Positions 419 through 48,400 of a stretch of DNA of 64,000 nucleotides are shown piece by piece. The notes below the pieces were generated by a model. It ran no database searches. It saw only the letters and a list, made by a program, of their open reading frames with translations, and was not told the DNA's origin. The stretch is from contig NZ_CP007128.1 of NCBI RefSeq assembly GCF_000522985.1, positions 1,720,220 to 1,784,219 on the forward strand, written 5' to 3'. The translations under genes and the position numbers were made by a program. Position 1 is the first letter of the stretch. Each line of letters begins with the position of its first letter. Source of the DNA: Gemmatirosa kalamazoonensis. Lineage in GTDB: Bacteria > Gemmatimonadota > Gemmatimonadetes > Gemmatimonadales > Gemmatimonadaceae.

Positions 419-420
419 TC

Positions 421-521
421 GCTGCGTGGCTGCGTGGCTGCGTGGCTGCGTGGCTGCGTGGCTGCGTGGCTGCGTGGCTGCGTAACGGCAGGCACGCAGC
501 CACGCAGCCACGCAGCCACGC
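421..521. repeat. GCTGCGTG tandem palindrome between convergent genes
   Basis: Eight consecutive octamers of the GCTGCGTG type (421-484) are followed by an 8-base spacer and then the inverse complement (493-521, CACGCAGC units). The transcript of either strand could form a long hairpin. It fills the whole gap between two converging genes. The same word recurs at 17688-17740 and 48319-48400, also just after a stop and also between convergent genes. A bidirectional transcription barrier is the simplest inference. Confidence 0.9.
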
Positions 522-525
522 CGCG

Positions 526-6041: not shown

Positions 6042-6114
6042 AGCTAGCGCAGAGCGTGGAGCGCAGAGCGCAGAGTGAGCGACCGGTCTCTGCGCTCTGC
6101 GCTCTGCGCTAGCT
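6042..6114. repeat. GCGCAGA palindrome
   Basis: The left arm AGCTAGCGCAGAGCG...GCGCAGAGCGCAGAG and the right arm CTCTGCGCTCTGCGC...TAGCT are inverse complements around a GTGAGCGACCGGT-like loop. It sits between two minus-strand genes. The same word family appears inside a coding sequence at 29230-29310. Confidence 0.88.
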
Positions 6115-6788
6115 CATCGCCGTGCGCGCTTGGTGCTGCCCCTCTTCGCGGTCGCCTTCTTCGCGCCGCCGCGCTTCGACGCGCCGCCCTTCTTCGCCGC
6201 GCCGCGCTTGACGGCGCCCTTCTTCGCGCCGCCCTTGCGCGCGCCGCCCTTCTTCGCGCCGCCGCGCGAGGCGCTTTTCGCGGCGGCCGCTTCGGCGTTC
6301 GCGCGCGCGGTCTCGAGCGCCATCGCGGCGTTGCTCTCGATGAACGACGCCATCGCGAGCTCCTGGTCGAGATTGCGCTGCAGCAGGTCGATGACCTCCG
6401 GGATGCCGAGGTTGCGCGCGATGGCGATGGCCGAGCGGTAGGCGGCGATCTCGTAGTGCTCGACGCGCAGGCCGGCACCGAGGTCGAACGCTTCCATGAT
6501 CGGCTTCGACGGCTCCTCCTCGGACTTGAACTCGTCGTGCTCCTGGATGATGCCGAGGATGCCGGGGCACCGCTGCGCCTGCGCGCGCTCGCCTAACGCC
6601 GCGAACGCGAGCTCGAGGTTGCCGACCTGCTGCTGCGTCTCCTCGTAGTGCTGCTCGAGGCGCGCGCGCATCTCGGCGCCGGACACCTCGCGGATCATCT
6701 TCGGCAGCGCCTTCAGAATGGTGCGCTCGGCGAACAGGATGTCACCGAGATCGTGGATCAACAGCTCCGGCAGGCTCTGTACGGACAT
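6114..6788 (-). CDS. Ferritin-like DUF892 (YciE-type) protein with lysine/alanine-rich tail
   Basis: At 224 aa it falls into two parts. Residues 1-165 match the DUF892/YciE ferritin-like four-helix domain: LLIHDLGDILFAER, MIREVSGAEMRARLEQHYEET, and GLRVEHYEIAAYRSAI with Glu and His residues suited to a di-iron site. Residues 170-224 are a tail of repeated GGAKKG, KKGA and AKRG units rich in Lys, Arg, Ala and Gly, like histone H1 or bacterial H1-like DNA-binding tails. By family knowledge YciE-type proteins are stress-induced; tail binding to DNA is an inference, parallel to Dps-type protection. ATG 6788 is chosen because the ferritin-like helix begins immediately after it. Confidence 0.87.
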   Translation of the reverse strand: MSVQSLPELLIHDLGDILFAERTILKALPKMIREVSGAEMRARLEQHYEETQQQVGNLELAFAALGERAQAQRCPGILGIIQEHDEFKSEEEPSKPIMEAFDLGAGLRVEHYEIAAYRSAIAIARNLGIPEVIDLLQRNLDQELAMASFIESNAAMALETARANAEAAAAKSASRGGAKKGGARKGGAKKGAVKRGAAKKGGASKRGGAKKATAKRGSTKRARR

Positions 6789-12170: not shown

Positions 12171-12309
12171 GGCTCCACGTACGTGTGTTCGTGGGACTGA
12201 AGAAGGACTGAAGGGGGACTGAAGAAGGACCAAACACAAAGAGTGTTGGTGGTCCTTCTTCAGTCCTCCTTCAGTCCTTCTTCAGTCCTGCAAGAACTCG
12301 TACGTGGAG
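12171..12309. repeat. GGACTGAAGAA palindrome between convergent genes
   Basis: The arms 12194-12231 and 12251-12288 are nearly perfect inverse complements, made of repeated GGACTGAAGAA and GGACTGAAGGGG words. An outer pair (GGCTCCACGTACGTG at 12171-12185 and CGTACGTGGAG at 12299-12309) extends the stem. It fills the gap between the DUF3006 gene and the converging metallo-hydrolase gene. This word was not seen elsewhere in the window. Confidence 0.9.
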
Positions 12310-16663: not shown

Positions 16664-17680
16664 ATGACCGCTCCACAGATGCGCCGCGCGCCCGCGGTGT
16701 TCCCCTACGTGCCGCCGACCGGCGCGACGACCGCCGAGACGCGCACCGTGTTAGGCACGCTGGCCGAAGCCGAGCGTCTGCTCGACGACACGCACGACCG
16801 GCTGCTCGACGGCGCGCTGGTCCACGGGATCGACGCGCTCGCCGGCGGCCTGCGTCGGGTGTACGACACGCTGCCGACGGAGACGTGGCGCGCGTTCGCC
16901 GAGGACGTGTGCCTGGGTCACCCGCTCGCGGGCGTCATGCACCAGGATCCGTTCCTGTGGCGCGCGTTCGAGAAGCCGCGCGGCTATCCGGGCGACGCGG
17001 GGATGCTCGACCTGATCTACGGCGCGGTGCCGCTGCCCGAGGGGACGACGCCGCTCGGCGCCGCGCTCAACGCCGTGACGATGCGGTCGCCGTCGGCGAC
17101 GAGCGTGCGCGAGCGGTGCGACCTCCTCGTCGACGCGATCGACGAGGCGGCGGCGCGGGCCGGGGGGCGCGGCGCGCGCGTGCTGTCGGTGGCGTGCGGC
17201 CACCTGCGCGAGGCCCAGCGCGCGTCCGCGGTGCTCGGCGGCGGCGTCGCCTCGTTCCACGCGCTCGACCAGGACCCGATCTCGATCGGGCTGCTGCAGC
17301 GCGAGCACGCCGCGTTAGGCGTGACGCCGGTGCTCGGCTCGGTGCGCGACGTGCTGACGCGGCGCGTGGCGTACACGGGGCTCACGCTCGCGTACGCGGC
17401 GGGGCTCTACGACTACCTGCCGACGCCGGTCGCGGCGAGCCTCACCGCGCGGCTGTTCGAGATGCTCGCGCCGGGCGGCCGGCTGCTCGTGGCGAACTTC
17501 TGCCCCGAGCTGCGCGACATCGGCGTGATGGAGTCGTACATGGCGTGGCGCCTGATCTACCGCGACGAAGCGGAGATGGGCGAGATCGCGGCGGCGGTGC
17601 CGGGCGCGGAGATCGCGCGGCAGCGCACGTTCCGTGACGGCGGGGGGAACGTGGTGTACCTGGAGATCGAGAAGGCGTGA
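16664..17680 (+). CDS. SAM-dependent methyltransferase, PhcB-like (3-hydroxy fatty acid methyl ester type)
   Basis: A 338-aa protein. A helical N-terminal region contains RAFEKPRGYPGDAGMLDLIY, characteristic of the family that includes PhcB, the synthase of the 3-OH palmitate/myristate methyl ester quorum signal in Ralstonia. The Rossmann fold follows with ARVLSVACGHLREAQ (SAM motif I, variant), FHALDQDPISI and a late LAPGGRLLVANF. The upstream desaturase fits a fatty-acid theme. Whether it makes a diffusible signal is unknown; no phcSR-like two-component genes are next to it. The gene ends just before a palindrome shared with other convergent junctions. Confidence 0.78.
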   Translation: MTAPQMRRAPAVFPYVPPTGATTAETRTVLGTLAEAERLLDDTHDRLLDGALVHGIDALAGGLRRVYDTLPTETWRAFAEDVCLGHPLAGVMHQDPFLWRAFEKPRGYPGDAGMLDLIYGAVPLPEGTTPLGAALNAVTMRSPSATSVRERCDLLVDAIDEAAARAGGRGARVLSVACGHLREAQRASAVLGGGVASFHALDQDPISIGLLQREHAALGVTPVLGSVRDVLTRRVAYTGLTLAYAAGLYDYLPTPVAASLTARLFEMLAPGGRLLVANFCPELRDIGVMESYMAWRLIYRDEAEMGEIAAAVPGAEIARQRTFRDGGGNVVYLEIEKA

Positions 17681-17687
17681 GTGATCG

Positions 17688-17740
17688 CTGCGTGGGTGCG
17701 TGGCTGCGTGACGGCCTAACGCAGCCACGCACCCACGCAG
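17688..17740. repeat. GCTGCGTG-type palindrome between convergent genes
   Basis: A perfect 22-bp stem (17688-17709 with 17719-17740) around a 9-base loop. The loop and first bases of the right arm contain a GCCTAAC motif. It lies between the methyltransferase gene and the converging transketolase gene and shares its word with 421-521 and 48319-48400. Confidence 0.92.
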
Positions 17741-17747
17741 TGGTCGC

Positions 17748-19787
17748 TCACGCTTTCCGTGCGAGGGACGCGGCGGTCTCGACCAGCTTGTCCACCGTGA
17801 TGCCGAGCTCCTTGTACACGGTCTGGTAGGGCGCCGAGGCGCCGAAGCGGGTGAGGCCGAGGACCACGCCGTCGTCGCCGATCCACCGGTACCACGCCAT
17901 CGGGTGCGCGGCCTCGATGGCGACGCGCGGCACGCCGGCCGGCAGCACCTCGGCGATGTACGCGGCGCCCTGGCGGCCGAAGACCTCGAGCGACGGCGCG
18001 CTCACGGCGCGGGCGCGGATCCCCTGGGCGGCGAGCTTCTCGCGCGCCTCGAGGACGAGCGCGACCTCCGAGCCGCTCGAGATCAGCACGACCTCGGGCG
18101 CCCCTCCTTCGCTGTCACCGAGCACGTAGGCGCCGCGGTCGAGCCCCGCGGCGCTCGCGTACTTCGCGCGGTCGATGAAGCCGAGCTTCTGACGCGTCAG
18201 CACGAGCGCGACCGGGCCGTCCGTGTGCTTCAGCGCGAAGCGCCACGCCTCCGCCGTCTCGTTCGCGTCGGCGGGCCGGATGACGGTCATGTTCGGGATC
18301 GAGCGGAGCGACACGAGCTGCTCGATCGGCTGGTGCGTGGGCCCGTCCTCGCCGAGCCCGATGGAGTCGTGCGTGTAGACGTAGACGAGGTGCCGGTGCA
18401 TGAACGCGGCGAGGCGCACCGACGGCTTCATGTAGTCGGAGAAGATGAGGAACGTCGCGCCGTACGGGATGATCCCGCCGTGCAGCGCCATGCCGTTCAT
18501 GATGCCGCCCATGCCGTGCTCGCGGATGCCCCAGTGGAAGTTCCGCCCCGCGTGGTCGTTAGGCCCGAACGCGCCGGAGCCCTTCAGCAGCGTGTTCGTC
18601 GACGGCGCGAGGTCGGCGCTGCCGCCGATCAGCTCCGGGACCTTCGCGGCGATCGCGTTCAGCACGATGCCGCTCGCGGCGCGGCTGGCGACGTTGCCGT
18701 TCTCCGCGGTGAAGCTCGGGATCGCGTCCTGCCAGCCGGCGGGGAGCTCGCCGCGCCAGCGCCGGTCGAACTCCGCGATGAGATCCGGATGCGCGGCGGC
18801 GTACGCGTTGCGCTTCCGCTCCCACTCCGCCTGCAGCTCGGCGCCGCGCGGGATCGCCTTGCGCCACTCGGCGAGCGCCTCGTCGGGAACGAAGAACGGC
18901 TCCGTCGACGGCCAGCCGAGGTTCTGCTTCGTGAGCTTGACCTCCTCCTCGCCGAGCGCCTCGCCGTGCGCCTTCGCCGTGCCGGCCTTGTGCGGGCTGC
19001 CGTAGCCGATGACGGTCTTGCACACGATCATCGACGGGCGGTCGGGCTCTCCCTTCGCCGCGTGGATCGCGCGGTCGACGGCGTCGAGGTCGTTCACGTC
19101 GTCGATGTGCTGCACGTGCCAGCCGTACGCCTCGAAGCGCTTGCCGGCGTCGTCGCTGTACGCGAGGTCGGTCGAGCCGTCGATCGTGATCTTGTTGTCG
19201 TCGTAGAAGCCGATGAGCTTCCCGAGCCGGTTGTGCCCCGCGAACGACGACGCCTCGTGGGAGATCCCCTCCATGAGATCGCCGTCGCTGCAGATGAAGT
19301 ACGTGTGGTGGTCGACGAGCCGCGCGTCGTCGCGGTTGAACACGGCGGCGAGATGCGCCTCCGCGACCGCGAAGCCGACCGCGTTCGCGACGCCCTGGCC
19401 TAACGGACCCGTCGTCGTCTCGACGCCCGGCGTGTAGGAGTACTCGGGATGGCCCGGCGTCTTGCTCTCCCACTGCCGGAACTGCTTCAGGTCGTCGAGC
19501 GTGAGGTCGTAGCCGCTGAGATAGAGCAGCGAGTAGAGCAGCATCGACGCATGGCCGCACGACAGCACGAAGCGGTCGCGGTCGGGCCATCCCGGATCGA
19601 CCGGGTTGTGCCGCAGGTGGCGCGTCCACAGCACGTAGGCGAGCGGCGCGAGGGCCATCGGCGTGCCGGGGTGCCCCGACTCGGCCTTCTGCACGGCATC
19701 CATCGCGAGCGTGCGGATGGTGTTGATGCAGAGCTGCTCGAGCGCGGCGTCGGTCGTCGGCGTCTGGGGCGTGGTGGCGGTGGCCAC
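17748..19787 (-). CDS. tkt: Transketolase
   Basis: A 679-aa full-length enzyme that exchanges two-carbon ketol units in the pentose phosphate pathway with thiamine diphosphate. Thiamine-diphosphate motif: [17 protein letters not shown]; substrate His positions in [10 protein letters not shown] and [12 protein letters not shown]; pyrimidine domain with [13 protein letters not shown] and [15 protein letters not shown]-terminal domain intact. GTG 19787 is preferred because conserved sequence begins about 15 residues later; TTG 19859 would add 24 proline-rich residues. It is monocistronic, and its 3' end abuts a palindrome. Confidence 0.96.
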
Positions 19788-27519: not shown

Positions 27520-30500
27520 GTGCGCTTCGTTCTGTCGTTCGCCTCCCTGCTGTTCGCCGCCGAGCTGGACGCCCAGGGGGCCGCTCGCCCGTCGCTCGCC
27601 GAGCCCTCGCTCTCGCCGGACGGGCGCGAGGTCGTGTTCACCTCCGGCGGCGACGTGTGGAGCGCGCCCGCCGACGGCGGCGAGGCACGGCTGCTCGTCG
27701 CCGATCCGGCGCTGGAGAGCCGGCCGCTGTTCTCGCCCGACGGGCGGCGCGTCGCGTTCGTCTCCGCGCGCACCGGCAACGGTGACGTGTACGTGCTCGA
27801 CCTCGCGAGCGGCGCCGTGCGGCGCGTGACGTTCGACGACGCGGCGGAGACGCTCGATGCGTGGAGCCGCGACGGGCGGTGGCTGTACGTCTCGTCGTCG
27901 TCGCGCGACATCGCGGGGATGAACGACGTGTATCGCGTGAGCCCCGAGGGCGGCACGCCGATGCCGGTCGCGGCGGACCGCTACGCGAGCGAGTACTGGG
28001 CGGCGCCGTCGCCGAACGGGCAGGCGCTCGCGATCACGGCGCGCGGCACGGTGAGCGGGCAGTGGTGGCGCCACGGCCGCAGCCATCTCGACGAGAGCGA
28101 GATCTGGCTCGTCTCGGATCTCGACGCAAAGGCGCCGACGTACACCCAGGTGACGACCGGCGGCGCGAAGAGCGCGTGGGCGATGTGGGCGCCGGACGCG
28201 CGCACGCTGTACTTCATGAGCGACCGCGACGGCGCCGAGAACCTGTGGGCGCAGCCGATGGACGGGCTGCGGCCTAACGGCGCGCCGCGCAAGCTCACCG
28301 CGTTCCGCGACGGCCGCGTGCTGTGGCCGAGCGCGAGCGCCGACCGGCGGACGATCGTGTTCGAGCGCGACTTCGGCGTGTGGCGCTACGACGTCGCCGG
28401 CAACGCCGCGCGCGCGGTGCCGATCACGCTGCGCGGCGCGCCGGCGGGCGGCGCGACGGAGCACGTGGCGCAGAGCGGCGGCGTGCAGGAGCTCGCGCTG
28501 TCGCCGGACGGCAGGAAGGTCGCGTTCACCGTGCGCGGCGAGGTGTTCGCCGCCGCCGCTCGGCCGGACGCGCAGGCGGGCGGCCCGGAGGCGGCGTTCC
28601 GCGTCACGAACAGCGCGGCCCTCGAGGAGGAGCTCGCGTGGAGCCCCGACAGCCGGCAGCTCGTGTACGCGTCGGACCGCGACGGCCGCTGGCGGCTGTG
28701 GCTCTACGACTTCGCGACTCGGCAGGAGCGCGCGCTGACGGCGGGCGCGGCCGGTCCGCTCGCGGGCGACGTGTCGCCGCGCTGGTCGCCGGACGGGAAG
28801 GAGATCGCGTTCACGCGCGGCGGCCGCGAGCTGCGCGCGGTGGACGTCGCGAGCGGGCGCGAGCGGCTCGTCGCCGCGGGCGCGTTCGAGCGGCCGCCGT
28901 TCACCGGCGCCGGCGACGTACGATGGAGCCCCGACGGCCGCTGGCTCGCGTTCGCGCAGCCCGCCGGCGCGAAGGGGTTCACGAACGTGTACGTCGTGGA
29001 GTCGCAGGGTGGGACGCCGCGTCCCGTGAGCTTCGTCGCGAACGCGAACACCGGCGAGGTGGCGTGGGGCGCCGATGGCTCGTACCTGCTCTTCCTCACG
29101 AGCCAGCGCACGGAGGCGACGCAGGTCGCGCGCGTGGACCTCGTGCCGCGCACGCCGCGCTTCCGCGAGGACCGGTTCCGCGACCTGTTCTCGAACCCGG
29201 CGCCGCCTAACAGAACGCGGGACACCGTGAGCGCGGAGCGCAGAGTGCAGAGCGCGGAGCGGGCGGTCGCCGCGGACACCCTCTGCGCTCCGCGCTCCGC
29301 GCTCTGCGCTGATTCGTCGCGTCGCGCCACGCGCATCGTGTTCGAGGACATCCGCCGCCGGCTCTCGCTGCTTCCGGTGGGGCTCGACGTGAACGCGATC
29401 GCGCTGAGCCCCGACGGGAAGCAGCTCGCGATCACCGCCGCCGTCGCCGGGCAGCCGAACGTGTACGTCTATCCGGTCGACGACCTCGCGACCGACGCCG
29501 TCGCGCGCCAGCTCACGACGAGCGGCGGGTTCAAGGCCGACGTGCAGTGGGCGCCCGACGGCAAGGAGCTGTTCTACCGCGAGAGCGGCCGCATCATGGC
29601 CGTGAACGTCGACACGCGCGTCGCGCGCCCGGTCGCCGCGACGGCCGAGATGGACGTCGACTTCGCGCAGGAGAAGGGCGAGCTGTTCGCCGAGGCATGG
29701 AGCTACCTGCGCGACCAGTTCTACGACGAGACGTATCACGGCGCCGACTGGAACGCGGTGCGCGAGCGGTGGGCGCCCCAGGTGGCCGGCGCGCACACGC
29801 TGCCCGAGCTGCGCCGACTGCTCAACCTCATGGTCGGGGAGCTGAACGCGTCGCACCTCGGCGTGAACCCCGGGGCGGGACAGTCGCAGCCGCCGAACAC
29901 GGGGCGGCTGGGATTGCGCTTCGACCGCATCGCCTCGGAGCGCGACGGCGTGCCGCGCGTGGCCGAAGTGCTGCCGTTAGGCCCGGCGGCAATCGCCGGC
30001 GTGCGCGTGGGCGACGCGATCGCGTCGGTGGACGGGCGCGCGGTCACGCGCGACACGAACCTGGACGACCTCCTCGCGTTCAAGATCGATCGCCGCGTGA
30101 CGCTCGGCCTCGTCGGCGCCGACGGCACGCGACGCGACGTCGCGCTGCGCCCCGTGAACCTGAACACGGAGAAGGGGCTGCTCTATCGCGCGTGGGTGGA
30201 GTCGCGACGCGCCTACGTCGACAAGGCGAGCGGCGGAAAGCTCGGCTACGTGCACATGCTCGACATGAGCGCCGAGTCGCTCGCGCAGCTCTACCTCGAC
30301 CTCGACGTGGAGAACCAGTCGAAGCAGGGCGTGGTGGTCGACGTGCGGAACAACAACGGCGGCTTCGTGAACGCGTACGCGCTCGACGTGTTCGGCCGCC
30401 GTCCGTACCTCACGATGCAGACGCGCGGCTTCGGCCCGCAGCCGGCGCGCGCGAACCTCGGTCAGCGCGCGCTCGAGCTGCCGACGGTGCTCGTGACGAA

Positions 30501-30798
30501 CCAGCACTCGCTCTCCGACGCCGAGGACTTCACCGAGGGCTGGCGCACGCTCGGCCTCGGCCCCGTGGTGGGCGAGCCGACGGCGGGGTGGATCATCTTC
30601 ACGTGGAACCAGACGCTGATGGACGGCACCGTGCTCCGGCTGCCGCGCGCGCGCATCACGGACCACGAGGGGAAGGACATGGAGCTGCACCCGCGGCCGG
30701 TGGACGTGCTGGTGGTGCGCCCGGTGGGGGAGAGCTATGCGGGGAAGGACTCGCAGCTGGACGCGGCGGTGGCGGAGCTGATGAAGAAGATCAGGTGA
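27520..30798 (+). CDS. Tricorn-like S41 serine protease with WD40/PD40 propeller repeats
   Basis: A 1092-aa exported protease. GTG 27520 is chosen because it gives a signal peptide (MRFVLSFASLLFAAELDA). Two beta-propeller regions with SPDGR(E/R)VVF, SPDGKQLAITA and similar PD40 blades fill about 30-740. A core helical domain, a PDZ domain (PLGPAAIAGVRVGDAIASVDGRAV) and the S41 protease domain (YLDLDVENQSKQGVVVDVRNN; nucleophile in TNQHSLSDAEDF) follow. Relatives degrade peptides in the periplasm. Residues about 568-600 are encoded by an in-frame palindromic repeat (29222-29325) between the propellers. No frameshift is needed. Confidence 0.9.
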   Translation: MRFVLSFASLLFAAELDAQGAARPSLAEPSLSPDGREVVFTSGGDVWSAPADGGEARLLVADPALESRPLFSPDGRRVAFVSARTGNGDVYVLDLASGAVRRVTFDDAAETLDAWSRDGRWLYVSSSSRDIAGMNDVYRVSPEGGTPMPVAADRYASEYWAAPSPNGQALAITARGTVSGQWWRHGRSHLDESEIWLVSDLDAKAPTYTQVTTGGAKSAWAMWAPDARTLYFMSDRDGAENLWAQPMDGLRPNGAPRKLTAFRDGRVLWPSASADRRTIVFERDFGVWRYDVAGNAARAVPITLRGAPAGGATEHVAQSGGVQELALSPDGRKVAFTVRGEVFAAAARPDAQAGGPEAAFRVTNSAALEEELAWSPDSRQLVYASDRDGRWRLWLYDFATRQERALTAGAAGPLAGDVSPRWSPDGKEIAFTRGGRELRAVDVASGRERLVAAGAFERPPFTGAGDVRWSPDGRWLAFAQPAGAKGFTNVYVVESQGGTPRPVSFVANANTGEVAWGADGSYLLFLTSQRTEATQVARVDLVPRTPRFREDRFRDLFSNPAPPNRTRDTVSAERRVQSAERAVAADTLCAPRSALCADSSRRATRIVFEDIRRRLSLLPVGLDVNAIALSPDGKQLAITAAVAGQPNVYVYPVDDLATDAVARQLTTSGGFKADVQWAPDGKELFYRESGRIMAVNVDTRVARPVAATAEMDVDFAQEKGELFAEAWSYLRDQFYDETYHGADWNAVRERWAPQVAGAHTLPELRRLLNLMVGELNASHLGVNPGAGQSQPPNTGRLGLRFDRIASERDGVPRVAEVLPLGPAAIAGVRVGDAIASVDGRAVTRDTNLDDLLAFKIDRRVTLGLVGADGTRRDVALRPVNLNTEKGLLYRAWVESRRAYVDKASGGKLGYVHMLDMSAESLAQLYLDLDVENQSKQGVVVDVRNNNGGFVNAYALDVFGRRPYLTMQTRGFGPQPARANLGQRALELPTVLVTNQHSLSDAEDFTEGWRTLGLGPVVGEPTAGWIIFTWNQTLMDGTVLRLPRARITDHEGKDMELHPRPVDVLVVRPVGESYAGKDSQLDAAVAELMKKIR
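29222..29325. repeat. GCGCAGA-family palindrome inside a coding sequence
   Basis: The left arm AGCGCGGAGCGCAGAG (29230-29245) and the right arm CTCTGCGCTCCGCGCT (29281-29296) form a perfect 16-bp stem, extended by further GCGCAGA-type words. It is the same word family as the intergenic 6042-6114 repeat, yet it is translated within the Tricorn-like protease. Confidence 0.88.
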
Positions 30799-30804
30799 CG
30801 GCGG

Positions 30805-30980
30805 GACGAGGACGCAAAGGGCCGCAGAGCCTTTCATTTGAACCACAGAGGACACGGAGGACACAGAGGAGAACCAGTTCAATTGGTTTCCTCCGTGTCC
30901 TCCGTGTCCTCTGTGGTTCAATACAAGAAGAGCAGCACGAGGCAGTCCTCTGCGGCCCTCCGCGTCCTCTGCGGTTCGAT
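30805..30980. repeat. Nested CAGAGGACACGGAGGA palindrome
   Basis: The inner arms 30838-30871 and 30889-30921 (CCACAGAGGACACGG and its complement) are nearly perfect. An outer pair of a different word (GAGGACGCAAAGGGCCGCAGAG near 30807-30830 and GCGGCCCTCCGCGTCCTCTGC near 30952-30972) encloses them. It lies in a same-strand spacer before the dehydrogenase gene. The word recurs at 31960-32041 and 38207-38330. Confidence 0.88.
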
Positions 30981-31078: not shown

Positions 31079-31960
31079 ATGACGACGACCTCCGTTCCAC
31101 TCGCGCTCCTCGGCCTCGGCCACATGGGGCTCGCGCTCGCGAATCGGCTGCTCGACGCGGGCTACTCGCTGCACGTGTACAACCGCACCGCCGAGAAGGC
31201 GCGCCCGCTGGCCGAACGCGGAGCGCGCGTGGCGGAGCGGCCGGGCGATGCGGTGACGCGCGGCGGCATCGCGATCACGATGGTGAGCGACGACGCGGCG
31301 CTCGACGGCCTGACGCTCGGCCCCGACGGCATCGCGGACGCGCTCGGCGACGGCGTGCACCTCTCGATGAGCACCGTCGGACCGGCGACGGCGCGGCTGC
31401 TCGCGGTGGAGCAGGCGCGACGGGGCGGCGCGTACGTGTCGGCTCCCGTGTTCGGGCGTCCAGACGTCGCGGCGCAGGGGAAGCTGTGGGGCGTCATGTC
31501 GGGCGCCGCGGCGGCGCGCGCCCGCGTGGCGCCGCTGCTGGATGTCCTGACGCGTGGCCGCACCGACCTCGGCGACGACCCCGCCGCGGCGAGCGTGGTG
31601 AAGCTCGGTGGCAACCTGCTCATCCTCGCCGCGAACGCGGCGCTCACCGACGCGCTGTCGCTCGCCGCCGCCTACGACATCGACCCGGCAACGCTCGCGG
31701 CGCTGTACGGCGACACGCTGTTCGCGAGCCCCATGATCAAGAACTACGCGACGGGCGTCGCGCGCGCGCTGTCGTCGCACGCGCCTAACGATCCGGGCTT
31801 CAGCGTGCGGCTCGCGCGCAAGGACGTCACGCTCGCCGCGGAGGCCGCGCGGGCCGCGGGCGCGTCGCTGCGAGTCGCCGAGACCGTGCGCGCCGGGCTC
31901 GACGACGCGACGGCCGCGGGACTCGGCGACGCCGACGTGACGTCGCTGCCGCTGGCGTAA
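31079..31960 (+). CDS. NAD(P)-dependent beta-hydroxyacid dehydrogenase family protein
   Basis: A 293-aa protein of the 3-hydroxyisobutyrate/6-phosphogluconate dehydrogenase superfamily. N-terminal Rossmann motif LGLGHMGLALANRLLDAG; a substrate-binding STVGPATA; YVSAPVFGRPDVA; and the catalytic Lys in VVKLGGNLLILAANAALTDAL. It should oxidise a short hydroxyacid or reduce the corresponding semialdehyde; several soil homologues are annotated as glyoxylate/succinic semialdehyde reductase, but substrate is uncertain. The last base of its TAA stop belongs to the next palindrome's stem. Confidence 0.9.
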   Translation: MTTTSVPLALLGLGHMGLALANRLLDAGYSLHVYNRTAEKARPLAERGARVAERPGDAVTRGGIAITMVSDDAALDGLTLGPDGIADALGDGVHLSMSTVGPATARLLAVEQARRGGAYVSAPVFGRPDVAAQGKLWGVMSGAAAARARVAPLLDVLTRGRTDLGDDPAAASVVKLGGNLLILAANAALTDALSLAAAYDIDPATLAALYGDTLFASPMIKNYATGVARALSSHAPNDPGFSVRLARKDVTLAAEAARAAGASLRVAETVRAGLDDATAAGLGDADVTSLPLA

Positions 31961-32041
31961 TTGAACCGCAGAGGACGCAGAGGGTCGCAGAGGACTGCAC
32001 ATGATGTCCTCTGCGACCCTCTGCGTCCTCTGCGGTTCAAT
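31960..32041. repeat. Perfect 36-bp stem palindrome, CAGAGGAC family, between convergent genes
   Basis: Arms 31960-31995 and 32006-32041 are perfect inverse complements of 36 bp around the 10-base loop TGCACATGAT. The left arm starts at the last base of a stop codon. The words ACCGCAGAGGACGCAG and GGGTCGCAGAGGAC relate it to the repeats at 30838 and 38207. It sits between two convergent genes. Confidence 0.95.
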
Positions 32042-38206: not shown

Positions 38207-38330
38207 GAACCACAGAGGACACGGAGGACACAGAGAAGAACCACTCTTGGTTTCCTCCGTGTCCTCTGTGGTTCGATCCAAAGAGGCCGTCCTCCGCGGC
38301 CCTCTGCGGCCCTCTGCGGCTCGAAGAACG
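38207..38330. repeat. CAGAGGACACGGAGGA palindrome with GCGGCCCTCTGC tail
   Basis: A perfect 22-bp stem (38207-38228 with 38253-38274), followed by GTCCTCCGCGGCCCTCTGCGG words (38289-38325) like those of the 30805-30980 repeat. It separates ada from alkA on the same strand; if it terminates transcription, alkA needs its own promoter. Confidence 0.88.
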
Positions 38331-48318: not shown

Positions 48319-48400
48319 CGCTGCGTGGCTGCGTAGCTGCGTGGCTGCGTAACGGCACTTACGCAGCTACGCAGCTACGCAGCTACGCAGCCACGCAGCG
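48319..48400. repeat. GCTGCGTG/GCTGCGTA palindrome between convergent genes
   Basis: Left arm 48319-48351 (GCTGCGTGGCTGCGTAGC) and right arm 48360-48400 (TACGCAGC units) pair with one mismatch in the core. It begins inside the spacer that follows the M20D stop and reaches the stop of the converging gene. It is the third copy of the 421-521 word. Confidence 0.92.

Follow-up and report, generated by a model that had tools for sequence, protein, structure and literature searches.

A dispersed GAGCGNN palindrome lies in frame within the hypervariable linker of a Tricorn-like protease of Gemmatirosa kalamazoonensis

A 64,000-nucleotide stretch of the Gemmatirosa kalamazoonensis genome, referred to here as the window, contains an open reading frame (27520..30798, plus strand) for a Tricorn-like S41 peptidase of 1092 amino acids, in which the PD40 propeller repeats and the Tricorn_C1, PDZ and Peptidase_S41 domains were all found. 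A hypervariable linker of 43 codons (29202..29331, plus strand), modelled as disordered, holds a palindrome at 29229..29310, to which no strand is assigned, as is the case for the other palindromes in the window. The palindrome lies in frame within the open reading frame and is read as SAERRVQSAERAVAADTLCAPRSALCA, the translation being taken from the open frame. Its arms are made of GAGCGNN heptamers. The left arm (29229..29261, plus strand) carries five, GAGCGCG, GAGCGCA, GAGTGCA, GAGCGCG and GAGCG, and the DNA of 29229-29310 continues from these to CTCTGCGCTCCGCGCTCCGCGCTCTGCGCT; the right arm (29281..29310, plus strand) consists of the inverted heptamers CTCTGCG, CTCCGCG, CTCCGCG and CTCTGCGCT. 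Positions 29229-29245 pair perfectly with 29281-29297 over 17 bp, and in an alternative register 29237-29261 face 29286-29310 as 25-nt arms that are 92% paired. The sequence-only reading had described a perfect 16-bp stem inside the protease gene, made of GCGCAGA-type words in common with a palindrome at 6042..6114. The stem is confirmed with a core of 17 bp, and the two palindromes do use the same words as one heptamer family, the repeat unit of which we correct to the 7-bp GAGCGNN.

The palindrome in the Tricorn-like gene is real and far above chance. Hairpins of comparable score number 12 in the real window and none in three dinucleotide shuffles. One might suppose that codon bias produced the palindrome by chance, as the linkers at this site are of low complexity in all homologues. 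However, in 4000 rounds of resampling that kept the peptide and redrew its synonymous codons, the observed stem was never reached, which makes the palindrome a feature of the DNA rather than a by-product of the protein and refutes an origin by chance or codon bias; the words, moreover, match a dispersed family that is present in few genomes. We regard this explanation as extremely improbable.

Elsewhere in the window, the GAGCGNN palindrome at 6042..6114 is intergenic and ends at the stop codon of a gene at 6114-6788 on the minus strand. Behind the stop codon of the Tricorn-like gene lies a palindrome of a different family (30838..30921) with the 9-bp word CACAGAGGA, and the same gene end bears palindromes of other words in two sister-genus genomes, G015 and G182. 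Convergent genes flank a 36-bp perfect palindrome with the word CGCAGAGGA (31960..32041) and the palindromes at 420..525 and 48319..48400 (both with the word GCTGCGTG) and at 12194..12288 (word GGACTGAAGAA). A further GCTGCGTG palindrome (17671..17757) overlaps both stop codons of a convergent gene pair, and a CACAGAGGA palindrome (38207..38274) follows a stop codon by 9 bp. The only hairpins within open reading frames of the window are the Tricorn palindrome and one weak hairpin with a long loop, so that the second gene-internal family proposed from the sequence alone was not found here.

We surveyed 1.264 Mb of the genome (7,479,215 bp in 4 contigs, with replicons of 5,311,527, 1,106,233 and 1,040,503 bp among them), covering 24% of the chromosome, with genes called by a custom script. 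The survey identified 248 hairpins with a score of 16 or more, about one of any family per 5 kb, and their arms are mostly tandem words: CGGGACT, GAGCGNN, GCTGCGTG, GGGCAGGA, CACAGAGGA or CGCAGAGGA, GGACTGAAGAA and others. Both 1-Mb replicons hold the same word families, which rules out their confinement to the chromosome. In a 1.2-Mb chromosome stretch, a median of 16 bp separates the intergenic hairpins from a stop codon, and few of them (15 of 210) are found between divergent genes. Nearly all hairpins are situated at gene 3' ends, and a minority lies in frame at protein linkers or loops. The GAGCGNN copies share words alone, as every loop differs and there is no conserved sequence of the whole element. 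Among the CGGGACT copies at C2:540608, 964360, 1033294 and 1071721, several have one loop, TGGGGGAGCAGTTCC or its complement; such a common loop would be expected for copied elements, unlike the situation in GAGCGNN. The two arms within an element resemble each other more than they resemble the arms of other elements of the same family, which suggests that one arm serves to correct the other or that both are formed jointly.

The position of the same families at mRNA 3' ends and the strong RNA stem might suggest a function at the mRNA level, for instance in internal pausing or attenuation, for which the hairpin would be retained, with the peptide being incidental. This reading seems improbable to us: a T-tract follows these hairpins in 1 of 110 cases, ribosomes would cover a hairpin inside a coding sequence, and no Rfam family was found at cut-off. 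The scarcity of TTTT behind the stem (1/110) also excludes canonical Rho-independent (intrinsic) terminators. A known RNA family was rejected for lack of any match at the Rfam cut-off; the weak microRNA-precursor matches reflect the hairpin shape alone.

A genome search for further copies inside genes, as the sequence-only reading had proposed, was successful. In the 1.264 Mb, 13 open reading frames contain tandem-word hairpins of only three families, CGGGACT (6 of 16 copies within open reading frames), GAGCGNN (4/16) and RCAGAGGAC (3/26), and none of the 49 copies from the stop-free families GGGCAGGA, CGCGGAG and GCTGCGTG in the surveyed stretches lies within one. Twelve hairpins in coding sequences reached a score of 19 or more with a loop under 60, compared with none after synonymous resampling. 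All 13 copies are located at linkers, loops or subunit junctions according to their Pfam contexts. The hosts are the Tricorn-like protease, a hybrid histidine kinase, a GAF histidine kinase, a BNR protein with a doubtful start, an unknown protein, a Ser/Thr kinase (palindrome between the kinase domain and the membrane helix), gamma-glutamyltranspeptidase (GGT; at the junction of the large and small subunits), a methyltransferase (before the Rossmann motif), ArsA (between its halves; its orthologues are few and variable), a GvpL/F protein, for which a sequence search of the PDB gave no match, and three of the proteins with CGGGACT palindromes. Of the last three, a SPOR protein encoded next to mutS carries the palindrome in frame directly before the SPOR domain (G000:C2:1033294-1033382, L233). 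A polysaccharide export protein carries it between SLBB domains (G000:C2:973673-973749, L230), where VIDVAS and PAFPL are separated by 27 amino acids and the corresponding TVDVAA and PALPL of G015 by 4, a gain of about 23 amino acids; the segment is longer than in 10 of 11 further orthologues, the remaining one having a long loop of its own. In MutS, an in-frame palindrome (IGTRDSGLGTRVPDESRVPSPESR; G000:C2:1031797-1031865, L233) forms a domain III loop of 24 amino acids, about 15 more than the 9 in G015, and most of 27 orthologues have 2-10, with two having long loops of their own. The SLBB and MutS palindromes are clear lineage-specific length gains.

The Tricorn-like protease is different in this respect. 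The sequence-only reading had the palindrome add about 33 residues there, with Tricorn homologues expected to lack precisely that stretch of about 100 bp. The comparison gave no net length gain: in 33 of 33 distinct orthologues from the family the linker is hypervariable and 23-60 codons long, compared with 43 here, and 25 orthologue sequences from named contigs, partly the same genes, agree. The claimed insertion fails because orthologues have a hypervariable linker of similar length, without the palindrome except in G015, an outcome that the sequence-only reading had itself named as a refutation. The presence of a dispersed repeat within the Tricorn-like coding sequence stands despite the failure of the insertion claim. 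In the AlphaFold model, residues 559-600 form the longest disordered, low-confidence stretch, with pLDDT below 50. A stop codon lies inside the gene of one Tricorn-like orthologue (L244:433-3627, contig JACMKY010000043.1).

We consider it probable that a dispersed REP-like palindrome with tandem GAGCGNN arms, spread by copying, has placed one of its copies in frame in the Tricorn-like gene, where it is tolerated as a passenger of the linker. Since the copies are dispersed, some copying process must presumably exist, and it is from this dispersal that mobility is suggested. Selection would purge copies that break genes or promoters. Copies behind stop codons would be kept, the hairpin there probably protecting or marking mRNA 3' ends, and copies in disordered linkers would likewise be kept, as the heptamer array is free of stop codons in every frame and might encode a neutral hydrophilic peptide. 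The Tricorn palindrome would then be a tolerated passenger of a pre-existing hypervariable inter-blade loop rather than a pure length insertion. The missing length gain at Tricorn and the different loops of all GAGCGNN copies, which ordinary mobile copies would not show, count against a mobile copy. We favour a process that copies the palindromes and homogenises their arms, combined with selection for hairpins at mRNA 3' ends. The words probably turn over quickly; hairpins at the same sites of sister species are made of different ones.

The best-known examples of protein-coding palindromes come from Rickettsia and from a small number of REP-rich genomes. The Rickettsia palindromic elements (RPE) described by Ogata et al. 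comprise, according to a review, families with conserved sequence that encode a conserved peptide (PMC10969869). As in RPE, palindromic DNA is in frame in unrelated open reading frames and contributes some tens of residues where the protein tolerates them (PMC10969869); unlike RPE, the palindromes here have arms built of tandem words of 7 or 9 bp and variable loops, and they are mostly intergenic, at gene 3' ends. Length gain of the RPE type is seen in the SLBB protein and MutS, but not in the Tricorn-like protease. With the GTAG/CGTC superfamilies of REPs our palindromes have in common a high copy number, a preference for the borders of convergent or unidirectional genes, some 20 bp or less from a stop codon, and a minority in open reading frames, DNA repair genes included, where they encode 20-30 amino acids (PMC3733652). 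In contrast to REPs, their stems are tandem words, the tags are not enriched at the foot of the stem (GTAG 7/145 against a background of 2-8; CGTC 12/145 against 21-41), and a Y1 transposase is absent: a search for PF01797 gave no match in G000 (this genome, 100% complete), which argues against Y1/RAYT mobilisation here, and one match in G015. Bacterial MITEs are likewise short, non-coding, dispersed inverted-repeat elements; unlike them, the palindromes lack target-site duplications, as flank matches of 192 hairpins were not above those of shuffled flanks, and no conserved terminal inverted repeat matching a known transposon was recognised. The palindromes resemble REPs and RPEs in working and are not GTAG/CGTC REP members by the features tested. 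The proposal of a general mobility mechanism with selection for tolerated sites is borne out as far as dispersal and the 13 open reading frames with copies at linkers, loops or junctions are concerned, whereas no REP-type transposase, target-site duplication or tag was found. No paper found in a limited literature search describes palindromes of tandem words in Gemmatimonadota. This free-living Gemmatimonadota genome shows the same process as Rickettsia and the REP-rich genomes, with an element of another kind that has reached housekeeping proteins such as MutS and without the transposase usually blamed. A scattered DNA repeat that normally sits just behind genes may be on its way to becoming floppy loops of working proteins.

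Among the Tricorn orthologues, a palindrome in the linker was found only in the closest, that of G015 from the sister genus (score 18, compared with 19 here; 11 or less in the others), and its words, GAGCGTC and GAGCGGC, are unlike those of G. kalamazoonensis. A single palindrome might have been acquired by the linker before the two genera split from their common ancestor, with the words being rewritten differently in each lineage, a reading to which we give slightly less than an even chance. Five left-arm heptamers are present in both proteins, in the same frame and starting within one codon relative to the same RD codon, and intergenic sites of the sister species show a similar turnover of words; on the other hand, the right arms stop at different places. 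The linker of G182, the second sister-genus species, appears free of heptamers, which would speak against ancestral entry and for two independent entries of the GAGCGNN family into a tolerant linker, one per genus, but its contigs break exactly there (C145 start, C185 end; L138, L139) in a fragmented assembly. Independent entries, which we hold to be plausible though somewhat short of even, have a precedent in the different REPs reported near the same recB site of two Xanthomonas species (PMC3733652). They would also be favoured by the richness of both genomes in the family: this genome has 387 triplet arrays of GAGCGNN, compared with 228 and 282 for two sister-genus genomes, 45 and 73 for two further genomes and 0-10 for the other 174 genomes of the family, with reversed controls near zero in nearly all genomes. 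The equal number of units, the common frame and the near-identical start are, however, unlikely to have arisen by chance unless insertion is site-specific.

Palindromes of different words also occupy corresponding intergenic sites and gene ends, with statistics that rest on few sites. In the two sister-genus genomes, six orthologous sites bear a hairpin in both and the words differ at all six; two hairpins are in G015 only and five sites have one in neither, with flanks mostly 75-88% identical. Between G000 and G015, 7 of 59 pairs of gene ends share a hairpin, above expectation (odds ratio 4.6, p=0.033), and the words are different in every one. Palindrome sites might be inherited with their sequence being replaced wholesale, implying a process that rewrites both arms together genome-wide, which we consider possible but on balance doubtful. 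If true, hairpins would persist in sister species at shared gene ends and even in a shared protein linker, each species using tandem words of its own, and one could ask directly whether the hairpins are kept for structure alone and which machinery rewrites the arms. Palindromes of different words at orthologous intergenic sites of the sister-genus species can be seen at L099:17135-17229/L141, L100:4623-4771/L173 and L099:6490-6567/L140.
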